64,000 bases of DNA from an uncultured Ignavibacteriota bacterium (GTDB taxonomy: Bacteria > Bacteroidota > Ignavibacteria > Palsa-1295). The notes under the pieces were generated by a model. It searched no databases, was not told the DNA's origin, and saw nothing but the letters and a program-made list of their open reading frames with translations. The translations under genes and the position numbers were made by a program. Positions 28,930-37,857 of the stretch are shown here, piece by piece; position 1 is the first letter of the stretch; each line of letters opens with the position of its first letter. The DNA is taken from contig CAIUMP010000008.1 of the NCBI GenBank assembly GCA_903900335.1, positions 1 through 64,000 on the forward strand. The letters run 5' to 3'.

Positions 28930-29169
28930 TTGGTCGATCCTCCCCCACGGGATTCCTCGCAAGCTCGGAATGACAGGTCGTAGAGATATGGGATCTAAGG
29001 GAAGTTGTCCTGCTAAGTGTGCCGACCTATATCGGCTTAAGCTTTCAACTTTTCCCAATAAATGGAACTGCCTTAACGCCTCCGGGCTTTTCCTGTTCCG
29101 CCGTGGATGGGAGGAGGATCGGTCATCCCCAGGGCAACCACTCGGACTCATTTACACGGAAATACGAAT

Positions 29170-29177
29170 TACTTTCG
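29170..29177 (+). promoter_or_regulatory. Candidate -7 promoter box for S1 (TACTTTCG)
   Basis: TACTTTCG fits the TAnnTTYG pattern seen before several genes here and lies 17 bases before the chosen S1 start at 29194. If the real start is the ATG at 29215, the leader would be 38 bases. Confidence 0.35.
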
Positions 29178-29193
29178 CACTCAAGAAACGACT

Positions 29194-30555
29194 ATGGAGG
29201 ATCAGAATCCGCTTATGAATGAACATACAGTATCGGAGCATTCCGATGCAGTGGATACAACGGCACCACTAACTGCCGATACTGCCACTGCGGATAATAC
29301 ATCCATGTCAAGCGATAGCACTGCCCCAGCGGATTCTCAAGCGCCGAAGACACCACGTGCGCCGGATCCGTTCGAAGGCTTCCGCTCACAAATGCGTGAT
29401 CGGGTTTCGGTCATGGCGCGTGTCATCAAGTGGCAGCGCAATGGGCTTGAGGTCGAGCTCGAAGGCGGCGCTCTGGCGTTCATGCCGAATGAGATGATCG
29501 ACCGCGACCCCAATCGCAACGTCGCCAATTATTTCAGCAAGACGATCCCCGTCAAGATCACGAGCGTTCGTGCAAAGCCAGGTGCTACCTCGGCCGAGCT
29601 TGTTGTGAGCCACCGCGCAGTCATCGAAGAGGATCTGCGCACGGCCGGACGTGAAGCGATCCAGCAGTACAATGTTGGCGATGTCGTCGAGGGTAAGGTC
29701 AAGTCCTTCAGTAAGGACAATGTTGTCCTCGATCTCGGTCCCGGCATTGATGCCGTTATTCGTCCTCGCGATCTGGCATGGCAGCATGTGGATCATCCGT
29801 ATGAGATCCTGAAGCGTGGTGATACCGTGAAGGCGAAGGTTCTGAGCCTCGATCGTGGCCGCCGTCGCGTGCAGCTTGGTGTCAAGCAGCTGACGGAAGA
29901 TCCGGAAGTTTTGAAGTACGCAGAGTACAAGCCAGAGCAGCTTATTACCGGCAAGATCATCACGACCGGCCACTACGGTGCCGAGATGGAGTTGCCGAAC
30001 GGACTTGTCGCATTCCTGCCAATGTCCGAGATCACGTGGGATCGCATCAGCGCTGTGACGGATGCCGTGAACATCGGCGATGAAGTGGAAGTGAAGCTGT
30101 TGAAAGTCGATGCCGACGATCGCCGCATCACCGCGACGCGCAAACAGCTTGTGCCGAATCCCTTGAAGATCATCGAGAGCACGTTCCGCATGGGGACAGA
30201 TCACGATGGCACGATCAAGGAAGTCAATCGTGGTGGAGTTGTCGTAACGCTGGAGCACGGCGCCGAGGGCTTTATTCCGCGCCGCGAGCTTTCGCATGAT
30301 CGCATCGAACGTCTGGAGGATACCTTCAAGACCGGCAAGCCGCTCGAAGGACTTCGCGTGATCGAATATGATAATCGTCAGTCTGAGGGCAGTCGCGGTC
30401 CACGCATCACGATGTCGCTGATCGCCGCAGAAAAGGAAGCTCAGACGAAGACGCTTAAGAATTACAAGGCGACACCTCGTGCCTCCAGCTACTCTCTCTC
30501 GGACTCCCTGGCCGCGCTGAAAGAGCAGTTGCTGAAGCAGGAGAAGGGGGAGTAG
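29194..30555 (+). CDS. rpsA: 30S ribosomal protein S1
   Basis: 453 residues: an Asp/Ala/Thr-rich acidic leader (1-65) and four S1 RNA-binding domains at about 70-142, 162-232, 248-318 and 334-411, with the typical GDVVEGKVKSFSKDNVVLDLG and EGFIPRRELSHDR words. S1 helps ribosomes load mRNAs that lack Shine-Dalgarno sequences. It has four S1 domains rather than the six of E. coli. The ATG at 29194 is used; a second in-frame ATG at 29215 follows GGAGG by 14 bases and is an alternative. A longer frame from 29107 has no support. Confidence 0.88.
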   Translation: MEDQNPLMNEHTVSEHSDAVDTTAPLTADTATADNTSMSSDSTAPADSQAPKTPRAPDPFEGFRSQMRDRVSVMARVIKWQRNGLEVELEGGALAFMPNEMIDRDPNRNVANYFSKTIPVKITSVRAKPGATSAELVVSHRAVIEEDLRTAGREAIQQYNVGDVVEGKVKSFSKDNVVLDLGPGIDAVIRPRDLAWQHVDHPYEILKRGDTVKAKVLSLDRGRRRVQLGVKQLTEDPEVLKYAEYKPEQLITGKIITTGHYGAEMELPNGLVAFLPMSEITWDRISAVTDAVNIGDEVEVKLLKVDADDRRITATRKQLVPNPLKIIESTFRMGTDHDGTIKEVNRGGVVVTLEHGAEGFIPRRELSHDRIERLEDTFKTGKPLEGLRVIEYDNRQSEGSRGPRITMSLIAAEKEAQTKTLKNYKATPRASSYSLSDSLAALKEQLLKQEKGE

Positions 30556-30634: not shown

Positions 30635-33600
30635 TTATGCGGATGCGGTTGAAACCTCCCGAATCGCCGCTAGCTTCTGTTCACGTGTCGTGCCTTCGTA
30701 GTTCTTTTGTCCGAAGGCGGTCTGTGCGCTCCAGAATCCTAAGCGGCGGTAGCTTTCGAACTGATTCTCGGTAAACCATTGGTTCGCGGTGGATTGCTGC
30801 GGGAAGTCAGCATGCTGTAGGCCATACTGTAACACGTCGGCTGGTTCATCACCTAGCACAACGGGCTTAAGAATGAGGATGGTGCCTGTGCGGTATTTCT
30901 CGCGCTCTGCGTCGCTCATGCCTTGGTCCCAATCCGGGCCCCAGATCGTGCGGAGATGTTGCTTACTATATGTAACCGTACCACGTAGCCAATGTTGTCG
31001 TGTGCTGCCGGTCGGCGCAGCGAAACCCGTCATTTCGCGTAGGCCTTCTTGGTCGAACTCGACACCAAAATCGATGCGGCAACGTCGGAAGGCATTGCCA
31101 ATATCATTGAAGTGGGTCATCGGGTCTGCGCCATTATCGCAGACGACAATGTATCGGCATGCGCGCTCAATGAGCGGATAGAGTCCGGTGTTATCGAAGT
31201 GTCCGCCGTCGGTCAAGTAGCAGAATGCTCCGAGGCCAGTCGTTTTGCTGAGTGACTCCATGATGAGGTAGTAAGGCCAAAATCTCGGCTGCGCATCGCG
31301 CCAGCGCGATCCCATCGGATTTGGCGCCCAGTATCCCAGGCGGATATTGAGCAAGCTCATCAGCATCGTCACTGCGCCCGATTGTGTTGCGCTTCCCATA
31401 TTCGGGCTTGCCGCTGCGCCGGAAATCGCGACCGCGGTGCCAAGGGTCATCTCGCCCGACATATACTCCTCGGTGCGCCGGTAGCCAGTGGTCACGGAGC
31501 CGCAGTAGTTCTTGCTCATGATAAAGTTCGAAGCATGACGTTGTGCGGCCTCCAATGACTTCGTACCTAGTAGGTTTAGCGTCGTATTCACGATATGATA
31601 AGGTGCGCCGTTGGTGACGTTGCTCAGCCGCGAAAGAGCGATGTCATCATTCGGATGAACTTCGCTGACAGAGGCCCTGCCGCGAAGCCAGTTGGACGCA
31701 CCAAGATATGCTCGCACGATGCGGGCACGATAGAAGGTGTGGATGGACAACGCATTCGGATCGAGCCTCCAGCCTATGTATATGACCAAACCAAGTGCAA
31801 CTGAAACCAACGTTGCCAACACGTGGGTGATACCAAGGTGCGGGTCTTCGGACAAAGTGGGGATGAATAGAAAGAGGGTACACATCGAGATCACTCCGCC
31901 CAACAGAATACGAGCCTCCCTATTTCCGCTGCCTCCCCAGATCAACTCGCACAACAGCACACTCGTGCTAACGGCGATTCCCATCAAGTACGGCCAATGG
32001 AATGGCATCTTCGCTTCTACCAGCATCATCCCTGCCGTTATCAGAACGGCCTGTGATAAGACAAGTATCACGATCATGGTACCGACCATCGCACCGATAG
32101 TCTTCACCCCACGCGCGGATTGTGTTTGCGCCCTGCTGGGTTCCGCTGGACGATCGGTATTCCTGCTTCCGCTTTCTTTGTCTGAGGCACTACGAAGCTT
32201 CTCTTCTTGGCGCTTCTCTCGTTTCGTTTGTCGTACAATTGCAAGCCAAGCCAGAGCGGTGATAGTGATAGCGACCCATCGGAAACCATCGATGAACTCG
32301 TAGTTATGCAATTCGATGAGCGATATCGCGCTGATTCCGATTTGAACGCCTAATAAGATGCGCCGGATCAGATGGCTGCCCTTACGGAACTTGAACTCCT
32401 CGATGACATAATAGATGGCCGCCCCAGCAAAGAGCCAGGTGAATAGAATGATCGTGATAAGATTCCGATTGGAATGATCCTCGGTCCGAAAGACAACCGA
32501 CTGCAACACCCAATGCCCGATCCACGAGATCCCACAGACGAGGATGAGCAGGATCAGCGGCGGCGCGAAGGACATCAGCATTCCCTTGATCTTGCTTGGC
32601 TTCGGCGCATCCTTGCGATCGGCACCAGAGGACGGCATAGAACTCTTAGCGGCGAATGCCGATCCGGTCAACGCGCTGATGACAACCGCAACGGAGGAGA
32701 GCCGAATGAGCCATTGCCAAAGATCACCTGTTGAATCCGATCGGAGGGGGTGGTAGTTGAACAGGTAATTGATAAGCTCATGCCCAAACCCGCCGAAGAG
32801 AAGCCAGACGGTGACAATGAATGTTGTAAGCAGGAGACGCTCATGAGAAAGTAGAATGCGAGTTCGACGAACTTCAAGTAATCGCGCCAGCTCTTGCTTT
32901 GCAGAAATGGAGTCCCCAGTTTCCGCAAGGATGATCGCACGATGGCCCTTCCAATAGCGGTGGGCTTCGTCCCAGATCACTCGGCTCAGCAAGCCAAGCG
33001 CAATCACCGCCCACGAAACGGACATTAACGTTAGTGCATCCCAACTAGGTGTTGCAGATTCCCCTAGCAAAAGAGGGAATCCAGCCAGCATTCCCCAAAA
33101 CGACAACAATCCAACTACGTACGCGAAGCTTCCTTGCAGAATGTTGCCTCCAGCAGGTGCGTTACTAACATTCGCCATCCAGAGCGTGATGAACATGATA
33201 ACCCACGCCATAAGAGCAATGGGAAGATAGCTTACGGTTAGCAACCGCTTTGTCAGGTAGTGTAAATGTGTTGGGTTGAAGAGCCATGCATCGCGTTCTT
33301 CCCATCGGTGGCGCACCAGGGCCGACTGCATCTCCCGCAACTTCGTATGCACGGTATCAACCTCTTCGATCAAGTCTTGTCGCAGGGCCTTTCTGGCGGA
33401 GTCTGCAGCGGGAGTATTTTGCGTCCCAGCCAAAGCATGAAGCGAATCCATTGCCCGCAGTTCGCGTGCGAAGTGATCGACGGAATCTATCTCCGTGCTC
33501 AGATGCTTGAAGTTGTCCGCCTCGCCGATCGAAGCAGAGACCGCGCTATCCGCACGCTCGTCCTTCTGCAATGAGTCTGTCACGTTATCAATCGCTCTGC

Positions 33601-34510
33601 TCTGTTCGACCCGAAGTCCTGGTGCTTCCTCTCGAAGACGATCAAGAGAGATCCCAGATCTTGAGGCCGAATCAGACCGATGCACGATCAGTTCGAGATC
33701 GGTTGCTGCTTTCATCTCACGTTGTAATTTCGCATTCAGCTCCTTGTCCTCCTGGATGTGTGAATACGGATAGAGGAACTCTGTTTCGGAGTCGGGCTGT
33801 AACGTGAAATACGCCTGAGCGATTAGCACGACCGCGAACAGCATTGGTAGCATTACCAGCCAAGTCAAGCTGAGATTTCGAGAGACGACCGTGATTGCAC
33901 GCCATGTGTCGCTGCTCATCAGACCCTTCGAAGGAGTGAGATAATTGCTGAAGAGCCGAAGGTGATGTGCGGGATCGGAGGCTTCCCTTCGCTTCCGACT
34001 AACTTCCGGTGTAGGCGAGAAGTCTATGTCACTGCCTTCCGCGCGGGCATCTCGTGCATCGCCGGTATCCTGTTCATCGCGTTCAGGTTGCGTGCGCTCC
34101 GGCGGAGGAAAGAACTTGTCATTCGCTGTTGCAGCGGAATCGAAATTTCGCGAAGTCCAAGCGCTCCACCATGATCCCGTAAAGCCTCCACCCGAAACTG
34201 TGGAGAGGTAATCGAAGACAGGCAGGATCCCCATCTTGCGGAGAGCCTGCAATGCGCCGAGTGAGGACGTCGCGCTACGGATGCCTCCGCCTGAAAGCGC
34301 GAGGCCCGCTAGATTCTTCGGATCAGCGGGTGGTGTCTGTGCATCCGCGCTGCCGTGGTCCTGCTCCGCTTGGCCGTGATCATCATTGCTCTCGAGCCTT
34401 GCCTTGGATTGCCGAAGGCCGATCTCGATCAGCTCGGATGCGAACACTTCGGCAAATTCATTCGCGTCCGGAATGTGCCGGGTTGGATCAACGGGTAACT
34501 GAGGAGTCAT
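30635..34510 (-). CDS. Giant patatin-like phospholipase with an integral membrane domain
   Basis: 1291 residues. The patatin oxyanion motif GGGIRSA (74-80) and the nucleophile region STVSGGGF with S106 lie at the N-terminus; the dyad aspartate motif DGGHFDN with D1101 lies near the C-terminus. Between them are one membrane segment (about 215-235), a 170-residue charged helical, probably extracytoplasmic, region, and around a dozen further hydrophobic segments (about 430-950). The lipase core is therefore split around a polytopic membrane domain, and the usual GxSxG is SVSGG-like (T-V-S-G-G). Expected activity is acyl hydrolysis of membrane lipids on the cytoplasmic side. Start at the ATG reading leftward from 34510. 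Single gene, convergent with S1. Confidence 0.85.
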   Translation of the reverse strand: MTPQLPVDPTRHIPDANEFAEVFASELIEIGLRQSKARLESNDDHGQAEQDHGSADAQTPPADPKNLAGLALSGGGIRSATSSLGALQALRKMGILPVFDYLSTVSGGGFTGSWWSAWTSRNFDSAATANDKFFPPPERTQPERDEQDTGDARDARAEGSDIDFSPTPEVSRKRREASDPAHHLRLFSNYLTPSKGLMSSDTWRAITVVSRNLSLTWLVMLPMLFAVVLIAQAYFTLQPDSETEFLYPYSHIQEDKELNAKLQREMKAATDLELIVHRSDSASRSGISLDRLREEAPGLRVEQSRAIDNVTDSLQKDERADSAVSASIGEADNFKHLSTEIDSVDHFARELRAMDSLHALAGTQNTPAADSARKALRQDLIEEVDTVHTKLREMQSALVRHRWEERDAWLFNPTHLHYLTKRLLTVSYLPIALMAWVIMFITLWMANVSNAPAGGNILQGSFAYVVGLLSFWGMLAGFPLLLGESATPSWDALTLMSVSWAVIALGLLSRVIWDEAHRYWKGHRAIILAETGDSISAKQELARLLEVRRTRILLSHERLLLTTFIVTVWLLFGGFGHELINYLFNYHPLRSDSTGDLWQWLIRLSSVAVVISALTGSAFAAKSSMPSSGADRKDAPKPSKIKGMLMSFAPPLILLILVCGISWIGHWVLQSVVFRTEDHSNRNLITIILFTWLFAGAAIYYVIEEFKFRKGSHLIRRILLGVQIGISAISLIELHNYEFIDGFRWVAITITALAWLAIVRQTKREKRQEEKLRSASDKESGSRNTDRPAEPSRAQTQSARGVKTIGAMVGTMIVILVLSQAVLITAGMMLVEAKMPFHWPYLMGIAVSTSVLLCELIWGGSGNREARILLGGVISMCTLFLFIPTLSEDPHLGITHVLATLVSVALGLVIYIGWRLDPNALSIHTFYRARIVRAYLGASNWLRGRASVSEVHPNDDIALSRLSNVTNGAPYHIVNTTLNLLGTKSLEAAQRHASNFIMSKNYCGSVTTGYRRTEEYMSGEMTLGTAVAISGAAASPNMGSATQSGAVTMLMSLLNIRLGYWAPNPMGSRWRDAQPRFWPYYLIMESLSKTTGLGAFCYLTDGGHFDNTGLYPLIERACRYIVVCDNGADPMTHFNDIGNAFRRCRIDFGVEFDQEGLREMTGFAAPTGSTRQHWLRGTVTYSKQHLRTIWGPDWDQGMSDAEREKYRTGTILILKPVVLGDEPADVLQYGLQHADFPQQSTANQWFTENQFESYRRLGFWSAQTAFGQKNYEGTTREQKLAAIREVSTASA

Positions 34511-34699
34511 GATGCAAGAAAAAGATGCTCTTGGGAGAAGGGATAATAATTCTCATTCGACACACGTGAGCAACCACGAGCGGCGAACGTGGAGCCCGGC
34601 CGCGCTGCAACACAAGTACCGGCGCGAGTTCGCTTGAGACGATGTAGCTTCAGGCGACGAATATACTACAATATACACCACTGGCCTTGTTTTTTGCCG

Positions 34700-34707
34700 T
34701 ATTTTCG
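34700..34707 (+). promoter_or_regulatory. Candidate -7 promoter box (TATTTTCG)
   Basis: TATTTTCG preceded by TTTTTTGCCG lies 46 bases before the ATG of the M1 peptidase gene, the same context and spacing as the boxes before recA and the lipoprotein at 9182. Confidence 0.45.
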
Positions 34708-34752
34708 CATGAGATTCGCCGTCATAATCATTTGGTCAGATCTTCTTATTCT

Positions 34753-37700
34753 ATGCGTCTTCGTACTTTCATTGTTGCATTCGTCACGCTGTGGGCATTC
34801 GCTCTTTCAACTGCTTCGCTTCACGCACAGACTGCCGCCACGGGCATTCCCTACTTCCAACAACATGTGCATTACACCCTCTCTGCGACGTTTGAAGACG
34901 ATTACTCTTCGCCAGCGATCACCGGGAGCGGATCGCTTGAATACACCAACAACTCGCCGGACACCTTGCGCGAACTCTATTTCCATCTTTATTGGAATCT
35001 CTTCACGAACGGCAGCTATGGAGAGCGCGCCCCGAATCGCGACCATTCACCGGACTCCAAATATGGTCATGGAGGTGTAGATATTCTCTCTCTCTCCGCT
35101 GGGGAAACTGGGAAAACCCATCAGGCAACGAAATACAACATCGACAACACGATCATGCGCGTCTGGCTTAACGAGCCACTGTTGCCCGGTGCTAAGACCA
35201 CTGTTCGGTTCAACTGGCATGGCATTCTTCCGAATTATGGCATTCGATCCACATGGGGCTGGCGCGACGGGGCGGCACGTAATTTCTCAACGGCCCAATG
35301 GTATCCACAAGTGTGTGTGTATGACAATCACGGATGGCATCCCGATCAATATATTGGGATGGGTGAGTTCTATTCGGATTACGGTGAGTTCGACGTGTCC
35401 CTGACGCTGCCAAAGCGATTCTCCACTGTTGTGAGTACTGGGTTTCTGAAGAATGACAAGGAGGTCTTAACGGACTCCGTTCGTCAGCAACTTGCCTTCG
35501 CACGTTCTCATCCCGATTCGATCATTCGCATTGCGGATTTCTCGAAGTACCACTACATAACTATCAGCAAGGACGCCCCGACGAAGACCTGGCAGTTCCA
35601 CGCCGATAGTGTCCGAGATTTCGCCTGGTGCGCGGATGAAGCCTATATCTGGGACGCTGTCTTCGACAACGGCATTATGCACCACGCTCTCTATTGGGAT
35701 AACTCCCGCGACTTCTGGTCAAAGGAGGCGGCGAAGATCGTACTGCTGACCATCCAAACGAACTCGAAGTTCGCAGGACAATACGCATACCCAAATGCCT
35801 TCATGTGTGAGACATACGAAGGAGGCATGGAGTATCCCGGCATCGTCTATATCGGACCGTATGAGAATGGCACCGAGCACCACTACCCGCAGAACACGAT
35901 GATGCACGAACTCGGGCATGAGTGGTACCCTATGATGATGGGCTCGAACGAAACCGATTACGGTTACATGGACGAGGGCTTTAATACATTTATCACAACC
36001 TTCGTGCAGGAGAAATATTTCGGCCGGTGGAATAACTCCAACGGTCCCGGACTTGGATATAACGATGACGAGCGTACATCGAATTATCGCGGTGCACTTA
36101 TTCAGCAACTCTCCGGCAATCAGGAGCCGAGCAAGCAGAAGGCCGATGTATATTTCGGATACCACGATTATGCGGAGGCAACGTACCCACATACATCGAC
36201 CGTCCTTTTCATGCTGCGCTACACGATGGGCGATAAGGCGTTCGAGGATTTCATGCATCTATATTACGAACGCTGGCGCTTCAAGCATCCGTACCCCGAT
36301 GACCTGATGAATGCCGCCGAGGACATCGAACGGCGTGAGGGCGACACGAACCGCGTTCGCGCGCGCGGGGACTTGCGCTGGTTCTTCAACGAGTGGTTCG
36401 ACCAGACGTGGAAGCTGGATTATGCCATAGAAGCTTTCAAGCCTGACGGTAACACCGCAACAGTTACCATCGAACGTAAGGAGCGCGCCGTCATGCCACT
36501 CGATCTCGTCTTCACTTTCGAGGACGGTTCCACGGAGCAGAAGTGGATCGCTGTGGATGATTGGCTTCGCACCGTCGCCGATGAGCGGACCTATACCTAC
36601 ACATTCTCGAAGCATCCGTGCAAGGTAGAGATCAATCCGTCGCTTGAATTGCTGGATGTGAATCGACTGAACAATACGAGCCGTTGGTTGCCGCCTATGG
36701 ATGTAAGTCTTATTCCGAAGATCTATGGTGATGTGAAGCCAGTTGATCAGTACTCTCTTCGGTCGGCACCGTTCGTCGCTCCCTTGGATGCTAATTTCAA
36801 GGATGGTACTTCCTTAGGTTGGACGCTCATCGGAGGCTACCTTGATAGAAATGATCGAATGGCAATCGGACTACGAGAAAGCGTTGGTCCCAACCTGGGT
36901 GACCGGCTCTCCGCAGTAATCCAATATCATAGCGTCTTCGATCTCTTCTCCCCGTTTAGCGATGTAGATGTTCTGCTGACGACTCCTGGCACAAATGCAT
37001 TCTACGGTTTCCGGTATGCGCATATGGTAATCGAACCAGGCTCGACCAATCCCCTCCACATCATCGAGTCGGGATATGACCTTACTGGGGATGTCTTTGG
37101 CAGCGCGACAGGACGCGCGCCCGCGCTGAACCGAGCGTATGCTGCTTATACTTTCCATCATGATGTAGGAGCGAACGATCTTAACTTCGCAACGCAAGTG
37201 GAAGAAGGACTGGGCGATCCTCGCACGACATACACGAAGATTGCTGCAACAGTAAACGATCGTCTGGACCTTTCCAGCAATTGGAACGCCTACCTCCGTC
37301 TCTTCGGCGGAAGCATGCAGCCCATCGGAGGTGCAGTTCCGACACAAACGCAATTCCAACTCGCAAGCCCGAGCGATGTGGATCACATTAGCGACCTCTA
37401 TGGCTCTAATTTTGGCATGGGTGTGCGGGATAAGATTCGCAACGCTGCGGTGTCCGGCCCGCTGGTGCGCGGATATTTCGGCAATGCAAACACCATGGGA
37501 CGTGCGGCGGCGAGTGCGAGCTTCGAGCTGGGCAATCGCTCCCTGTTCCCATTCAATATCTTGAAAGCAATTCCCTATCTCGGCACCGCTTTGGAAACGT
37601 GCGGACTAACCTTGTTCGCAGACGCGGGTGTCGTAACCAACAACTTCAACACCAACACGCTAAAGGATGAGATCCAGAGCGATGCTGGCGTTGGACTGCG

Positions 37701-37857
37701 ATGGTTCGGCTTCAGTGATCGCAAGAACCGCGCATTTGGCCTCGACTTAGACCGCATGGATGTCCAACTGGATTTCCCGCTCTATCTCGACAAGCCCTCT
37801 AATGGTGAGAAGAACTTTGGCTTTAGGATGGTGGGGATGATTCGGCAGAATTTTTAG
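34753..37857 (+). CDS. Exported M1-family (gluzincin) metallopeptidase
   Basis: 1034 residues with a signal peptide (residues 1-25, ending HAQ). The N-terminal beta domain (about 35-270) is that of M1 aminopeptidases; the catalytic domain contains GGMEYPG (exopeptidase-type motif), the zinc site HELGH (H385, E386, H389) and the third ligand E408 in YMDEGF, exactly 18 residues after the second His. The C-terminal third (about 670-1034) is beta-rich and ends with barrel-like strands, so it may be membrane-associated. It probably degrades peptides in the periplasm. The TTG at 34687 would put 22 residues before the signal peptide and was rejected. Confidence 0.88.
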   Translation: MRLRTFIVAFVTLWAFALSTASLHAQTAATGIPYFQQHVHYTLSATFEDDYSSPAITGSGSLEYTNNSPDTLRELYFHLYWNLFTNGSYGERAPNRDHSPDSKYGHGGVDILSLSAGETGKTHQATKYNIDNTIMRVWLNEPLLPGAKTTVRFNWHGILPNYGIRSTWGWRDGAARNFSTAQWYPQVCVYDNHGWHPDQYIGMGEFYSDYGEFDVSLTLPKRFSTVVSTGFLKNDKEVLTDSVRQQLAFARSHPDSIIRIADFSKYHYITISKDAPTKTWQFHADSVRDFAWCADEAYIWDAVFDNGIMHHALYWDNSRDFWSKEAAKIVLLTIQTNSKFAGQYAYPNAFMCETYEGGMEYPGIVYIGPYENGTEHHYPQNTMMHELGHEWYPMMMGSNETDYGYMDEGFNTFITTFVQEKYFGRWNNSNGPGLGYNDDERTSNYRGALIQQLSGNQEPSKQKADVYFGYHDYAEATYPHTSTVLFMLRYTMGDKAFEDFMHLYYERWRFKHPYPDDLMNAAEDIERREGDTNRVRARGDLRWFFNEWFDQTWKLDYAIEAFKPDGNTATVTIERKERAVMPLDLVFTFEDGSTEQKWIAVDDWLRTVADERTYTYTFSKHPCKVEINPSLELLDVNRLNNTSRWLPPMDVSLIPKIYGDVKPVDQYSLRSAPFVAPLDANFKDGTSLGWTLIGGYLDRNDRMAIGLRESVGPNLGDRLSAVIQYHSVFDLFSPFSDVDVLLTTPGTNAFYGFRYAHMVIEPGSTNPLHIIESGYDLTGDVFGSATGRAPALNRAYAAYTFHHDVGANDLNFATQVEEGLGDPRTTYTKIAATVNDRLDLSSNWNAYLRLFGGSMQPIGGAVPTQTQFQLASPSDVDHISDLYGSNFGMGVRDKIRNAAVSGPLVRGYFGNANTMGRAAASASFELGNRSLFPFNILKAIPYLGTALETCGLTLFADAGVVTNNFNTNTLKDEIQSDAGVGLRWFGFSDRKNRAFGLDLDRMDVQLDFPLYLDKPSNGEKNFGFRMVGMIRQNF

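Follow-up and report, generated by a model that had tools for sequence, protein, structure and literature searches.

The window analysed here, a stretch of 64,000 nucleotides from an uncultured Ignavibacteriota bacterium, encoded a large membrane protein of the cPLA2/patatin superfamily whose catalytic residues were split by a membrane domain. The nucleophile Ser106 and the dyad residue Asp1101 lay 995 residues apart in the sequence, with 13 membrane segments by Kyte-Doolittle hydropathy and 14 when the helices of an AlphaFold2 model were scored. The original prediction, which had given a distance of about 1000 residues, an oxyanion motif and Ser within residues 74-106 and around a dozen membrane segments, was accurate in all of these. 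Its idea that a lipase forms part of a large membrane protein was also supported by the conserved dyad, the cPLA2-like predicted fold over both halves, and the even number of membrane segments with both halves cytoplasmic. Considering the motifs, their conservation, the predicted fold, the topology and the gene linkage as a whole, we favour, with some reserve, an inner-membrane cPLA2-like acyl hydrolase which would supply fatty acids to haem oxygenases. The more limited claim, that the protein is an acyl hydrolase and that its two halves are both cytoplasmic, is very probable.

Catalytic motifs and spread of the family

The sequence features of the patatin/cPLA2 superfamily were present in the window protein: a glycine-rich oxyanion motif followed by Arg or Lys (here GGGIRS), an elbow with the nucleophile Ser some 30 residues further on (Ser106), and the dyad Asp in D-x-G (an invariant DGGH). 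The same superfamily motifs and Ser-Asp dyad are found in patatin-like phospholipases including ExoU, VipD and PlpD (for the dyad, PMC5127104). As had been noted from the sequence, TVSGG (residues 104-108) took the place of GxSxG around Ser106, and this was a family trait, with S-x-V-S-G-G-G in nearly every listed member and I replacing V in a few. The Pfam model Patatin (PF01734) matched residues 70-122 (31.4 bits, cut-off 27.7); unlike a classical patatin, the window protein covered model positions 1-51 of 191 only and had no GxSxG. The label patatin given originally is a loose one, since the nearest fold by structure prediction is that of cPLA2. No Pfam family was matched by the C half at E<=0.1, and no match to the protein was obtained in NCBIfam or PADLOC. 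Pfam matches to Piezo (22.2 against 28.8 bits) and a FUSC-like family were under the cut-offs and were discarded. A second Patatin domain, classical and full-length (104.7 bits), was encoded elsewhere in the same genome (G000, contig C7, 34220-34804, forward strand, L001).

The family alignment was built on relatives from 61 neighbouring genomes and 41 plasmid records, and its conserved words were used to scan genomes, one per species. At least 573 relatives were detected, and the carriers among the matches listed belonged to Proteobacteria, Acidobacteria, Nitrospira, Planctomycetes, Gemmatimonadota, Rokubacteria and others. The full-length window protein, used alone as the query of such a scan, gave no match because its patterns lay in variable regions. 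No family match was present in phage records, and one was present in viral contigs. Among 78-83 divergent aligned homologues, S106, G107-109, G74-76, Arg78, D1101, G1102, G1103, H1104 and N1107 were invariant; judged from these alignments, the conservation of the dyad and oxyanion motif is far beyond chance. Outside the genus, the catalytic halves were 41-55% identical to the window protein, whereas the identity was 14-20% for TM2-TM14 (transmembrane segments 2-14) and 9-22% for the charged loop. With near relatives included, the N half was 55-71% identical in these and 44% in distant ones, and the C half 41-76%; the charged loop reached no more than 35% even within the genus and 9% in the wide family. 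These results suggested that selection keeps the enzyme, while the membrane part drifts. Across the family the stretch from Ser to Asp was between about 390 and about 1176 residues long, and hydrophobic helices, at least four, were always present in it.

The best Pfam match for the C half across 41 members was PLA2_B (PF01735) at 0.05, in 2 of the 41. Proteins named "patatin-like phospholipase family protein" in RefSeq on rhizobial and other plasmids belonged to the same family: 41 plasmid records matched, the best of them over both catalytic halves. The RefSeq names of many members were generic (this name or "hypothetical protein"), with no mention of the membrane split found, and no paper describing the split membrane architecture was found in a literature search that mostly left out subscription journals and preprints. 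The family is widespread in bacteria and apparently undescribed.

Two irregularities in gene structure were observed. The relative on a Hymenobacter plasmid (L016, 7230-10861) was annotated as two coding sequences, with the Asp half as a second open reading frame (ORF) in another frame, which may be a frameshift or a genuine split gene. Long C-terminal extensions past the catalytic half were seen in stop-to-stop ORFs of L045, L083, L085, L099, L100, L041 and L050; Pfam on three extended ORFs gave a weak, sub-threshold GNAT match in L100 only, and the extensions may be read-through of high-G+C frames.

Predicted fold and membrane topology

AlphaFold2 was run with the family alignments, leaving out the plasmid rows. 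For the window protein (residues 61-1260) the predicted TM-score (pTM) was 0.75, the per-residue confidence (pLDDT) being mostly 85-98 in the catalytic halves; for a compact stretch of 669 residues from a relative the pTM was 0.82. In both models Ser106 was placed between a strand and a following helix. When the compact model was searched against the PDB by Foldseek, ten matches were obtained at E<=0.001, all of them human cPLA2 alpha or delta (1cjy/5iz5), down to 3e-7 and along the entire compact model, in about 690-740 alignment columns; VipD (4e-3) came well under cPLA2, and ExoU and PlpD lower still. No membrane insert is known to us in any of these three. The window model had the same top matches, led by cPLA2 delta (probability 1.0, E 5e-3), and its matches were weaker because the membrane domain makes up most of the model. 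A hidden Markov model (HMM) of the N half matched cPLA2 delta at 4.8e-5; that of the C half found no relative among PDB sequences, and it was the fold search alone that tied this half to cPLA2. From the Foldseek matches and the N-half match we infer that the two halves build one cPLA2-like domain, a common fold of both halves being a feature of the patatin/cPLA2 superfamily. The structure prediction proposed earlier to see whether the halves meet did not speak against it, a meeting being suggested by the cPLA2 match along both halves.

The window protein thus resembled group IV cPLA2 (human alpha 1cjy, delta 5iz5) in the predicted fold over both halves, the N-half sequence match, the Ser-Asp dyad and the glycine-rich oxyanion motif. 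It differed in its bacterial origin, in TVSGG at the Ser, and in having a polytopic membrane domain inserted between the dyad residues. In group IV cPLA2 the nucleophile stands in GLSGS, and most paralogues carry a C2 domain at the N terminus. The window protein had TVSGG in place of GLSGS and no C2 domain among its Pfam matches, and the full-length sequence likewise gave no Pfam match to PF01735, the family of group IV cPLA2.

Hydropathy averaged over 38 typical members gave 10 segments between the halves in the same alternation as the window protein, and two more peaks inside the catalytic core. As the counts were even (14 in the window protein, 10 in the consensus), both halves are predicted to be cytoplasmic and the charged loop outside. 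In the window model, inner loops 4, 6, 8 and 10 contained 9, 6, 3 and 13 K/R respectively, and the short outer loops 0-2. The charged loop, described earlier as having 170 residues, did exist and was slightly longer, 196 residues (232-427) with 25 K/R and 35 D/E. The positions of these parts and of the linked genes are listed in Table 1.

Table 1. Parts of the window protein and genes linked to it in the window
Feature	Position	Strand	Basis
Split cPLA2/patatin-fold membrane protein, 1291 aa	30635..34510	-	ORF with ATG start; Pfam; family alignments
N-terminal catalytic half, residues 61-212	33875..34330	-	pLDDT mostly 82-97, lower at ~141-170
Oxyanion motif GGGIRS, residues 74-79	34274..34291	-	glycines and Arg identical across 78-83 homologues
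Putative nucleophile Ser106 in STVSGGG	34193..34195	-	invariant in 78-83 homologues
First membrane helix (TM1), residues 213-231	33818..33874	-	hydropathy 2.4 (Kyte-Doolittle); modelled as a helix
Charged loop 232-427, predicted extracytoplasmic	33230..33817	-	between TM1 and TM2; pLDDT partly low
TM2-TM14, residues 428-910	31781..33229	-	AlphaFold2 helices with hydropathy >1.0; positive-inside pattern
C-terminal catalytic half, residues 911-1291	30638..31780	-	pLDDT 86-98 over most; no Pfam model
Putative dyad Asp1101 in DGGHFDN	31208..31210	-	D1101, G1102, G1103, H1104 and N1107 invariant
Zinc-ribbon, class III nucleotide cyclase, AAA_16 protein (cyclase-AAA), 1147 aa	18587..22030	+	Pfam
Lcp/MpaB-type haem oxygenase homologue, 508 aa	22090..23616	+	PF09995 1.4e-7; PDB Lcp 0.0023
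Fatty-acid desaturase, 307 aa	23660..24583	+	PF00487 1.7e-29; histidine boxes

Gene linkage to oxygenases

Gene context, which the original prediction had recommended examining together with the phyletic spread, revealed linked oxygenase, cyclase-AAA and desaturase genes. In the window these three were consecutive on one strand, 6-12 kb from the patatin gene. In the congeneric genome G004, the desaturase, oxygenase and cyclase-AAA genes stood immediately beside the patatin gene and convergent with it, and in G005 the oxygenase gene was 43 bp from it, with the cyclase-AAA gene further on. The patatin gene and full-length oxygenase and cyclase-AAA genes occurred together and linked in exactly three of seven congeneric genomes (G000, which is the window genome, G004 and G005). 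Apart from the window genome, only G004 and G005 had a full-length cyclase-AAA orthologue next to the oxygenase; desaturase relatives were found in G000 and G004. Nothing else was common to the congeneric loci in a 60 kb comparison, apart from weak matches. Thus the earlier statement that no partner genes are adjacent held for the touching genes, which encode an unrelated S1-domain protein (29107-30555, tail to tail) and M1 peptidase (34687-37857, divergent), and did not hold at a scale of 12 kb, where the linked set lies, a set that is directly adjacent in congeneric genomes. The S1 and M1 peptidase genes were not adjacent to each other in other congeneric genomes, which therefore offered no empty site for comparison. 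Foreign origin by composition was rejected, as G+C and third-position G+C (GC3) of the gene were the same as those of neighbouring genes.

The haem site of Lcp is R-x-x-H-x-x-x-R with Arg195, His198 and Arg202 (PMC5522427), and its spacing was preserved in the window oxygenase. An RxxET in this protein may correspond to Arg164/Lys167/Thr168 of Lcp, with Glu replacing the distal Lys. The cyclase-AAA gene was also considered, from L103, as a conserved neighbour across phyla, and was rejected: the L103 match spanned the AAA/TPR part only (251-1138) and the family was multi-copy elsewhere, so linkage is claimed for the congeneric genomes alone. A membrane/HEAT protein with a C-terminal cyclic-nucleotide-binding domain was encoded near the patatin gene in G005 (L023, 3438-6983), with a relative near that of G004 (L022, 18475-19899); none was seen in the window.

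In other phyla, a di-haem RoxA-like protein, a protein of animal-haem-peroxidase fold or a GMC oxidoreductase was encoded within 9 kb at 13 of 82 loci. By sequence, two of the neighbouring peroxidases (E 3.5e-102 and 3.1e-97) were fatty-acid alpha-dioxygenases, one of which overlapped the end of the patatin ORF, and a third (L087) fell into the same sequence cluster. The di-haem family was present in 16 of 50 patatin-bearing genomes, nearly always in single copy, and within 10 kb of the patatin gene in nine; the ninth case (L044, with two CxxCH motifs) was recognised by contig coordinates. At a chance of about 0.4% each, the binomial probability of this proximity was 3e-18; some of the nine are interrelated, and 5 of 8 still gave 6e-11. 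The order di-haem, GMC, patatin on one strand was shared by L044, L054 and L059, and a GMC oxidoreductase was fused to the patatin in one 1562-aa coding sequence on plasmid pOM4 of Mesorhizobium onobrychidis (L140, 2709-7397). Known di-haem fatty-acid oxygenases are PA2077 and PA2078 of P. aeruginosa, which form the oleate-diol synthase operon (PMC4496055); the di-haem proteins linked to the patatin may act in a similar way, and a phospholipase or lipase is never mentioned in the text of that paper. As a separate observation, a protein that joins a catalase-like N part to a C part of the fatty-acid alpha-dioxygenase kind was encoded 2 kb downstream of one family member (L018, 12629-15478).

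Proposed function and alternatives

The window protein is proposed to be an integral inner-membrane acyl hydrolase of the phospholipase A type, in which the membrane domain would sit where an internal loop of a cPLA2-like catalytic domain would be, with the catalytic halves encoded on its two sides. The cytoplasmic halves would fold together, and Ser106 and Asp1101 would form a dyad against the inner leaflet. Besides hydrolysis, we infer a substrate, gating and product oxidation: the membrane domain would hold the enzyme on its substrate and probably gate the access of acyl chains, the outer loop could relay a signal, and the likely task would be to release unsaturated fatty acids from inner-leaflet phospholipid for oxidation by haem oxygenases. 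In the window lineage the linked Lcp/MpaB-type enzyme would carry out the oxidation and the desaturase would supply double bonds. In other lineages the oxidation would fall to alpha-dioxygenases or to di-haem RoxA-like proteins, often with a GMC oxidoreductase. For the step of feeding fatty-acid oxidation, the chances appear evenly balanced.

Several observations weigh against this proposal. The closeness of Ser106 and Asp1101 is suggested by the cPLA2 fold match, for which the Foldseek TM-scores were modest: the compact homologue scored 0.35-0.42, and the window model, which is mostly membrane domain, 0.15-0.16 when normalised by query length. The window oxygenase is a remote Lcp relative without an equivalent of the distal Lys167, and two other carriers, G009 and G052, had no such oxygenase. 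The alpha-dioxygenase and RoxA-like neighbours belong to other phyla, and the window genome gave no match to either Pfam family in a search whose first control was silent in every genome. RoxA-type enzymes are exported and the hydrolase is predicted to be cytoplasmic, so that the product would need to cross the membrane.

A role in membrane-lipid housekeeping or remodelling (deacylation, lysolipid clearance or acyl transfer) would fit the same fold, topology and conserved dyad. The oxygenase link would then be a stress response to oxidised lipids, in which damaged acyl chains are removed and no oxidation pathway is fed, and this was consistent with the peroxiredoxin and catalase-like domains among the neighbours at one locus and with the many members without a nearby oxygenase (13 of 82 loci have one). 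However, the linked enzymes (alpha-dioxygenase, di-haem and Lcp-type oxygenases, desaturase) make oxidised chains and are not repair enzymes, and we regard housekeeping as a secondary candidate with perhaps a minor share of the probability. More improbable is a stress- or phage-triggered membrane-damage effector, in which the phospholipase would be activated by the nucleotide-cyclase/AAA sensor, in the manner of CBASS CapV or Pycsar. The linked cyclase-AAA matched PADLOC PycC models (2.8e-19), a Streptomyces plasmid relative (L020, 5964-9705) lay directly upstream of a PycTM (Pycsar effector) protein, a cyclic-nucleotide-binding protein was encoded 684 bp upstream in G005, and the distribution within the genus was patchy (3/7). 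In Pycsar, a class III cyclase (PycC) is encoded beside an effector that has a cyclic-nucleotide-binding domain; the window cyclase, with its PycC matches, was fused to AAA and located 8.6 kb off, and the patatin protein had no such domain in Pfam. Class III cyclases are, moreover, a common fold, and the cyclase-AAA type was multi-copy in unrelated genomes. No nucleotide-binding domain was found in the patatin protein, PADLOC was silent on it, and NCBIfam CBASS_lipase reached 0.044 in one member only. The conserved neighbours were lipid-oxidation enzymes, and phage or defence-island context was absent in the phage and viral searches, one viral contig aside. CapV is a soluble effector phospholipase, activated by cyclic nucleotides and encoded next to a CD-NTase. 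It is like the window protein a patatin-like bacterial lipase, and AbCapV was in the Foldseek list at E about 1; the window protein differed in giving no PADLOC or NCBIfam match and in being flanked by the S1-domain protein and M1 peptidase genes, with no CD-NTase. The defence effector of the original prediction, like its scramblase-like device, therefore gained no support. A pseudoenzyme, or a transporter or scramblase whose cPLA2-like domain merely binds lipid, is very unlikely: the membrane domain is large and variable and the nucleophile elbow deviates from GxSxG, but the catalytic residues were invariant across phyla over a weakly conserved membrane domain, and a transporter would show the opposite; the Piezo match, too, stayed under its cut-off.

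A wider comparison may be drawn, to which we give limited weight. The favoured acyl hydrolase could be part of a bacterial counterpart of the animal eicosanoid cascade, in which a membrane-integral cPLA2-fold enzyme would free fatty acids. Haem oxygenases encoded in linkage with it, and interchangeable with one another (alpha-dioxygenase related to cyclooxygenase, di-haem RoxA-like or Lcp/MpaB-like), would convert these into lipid signals, and in the lineage of the window a nucleotide-cyclase/AAA sensor would control the process. Members of the cPLA2/patatin superfamily of phospholipases are as a rule soluble and have to find the membrane. Here, a phospholipase appeared to be built round a polytopic membrane domain, with its dyad split across it, in a form that is common in bacteria and of which one half has no Pfam model. 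Its repeated linkage to fatty-acid oxygenases gives a concrete and testable reason to expect, in many phyla of bacteria, oxidised fatty acids that derive from the membrane.

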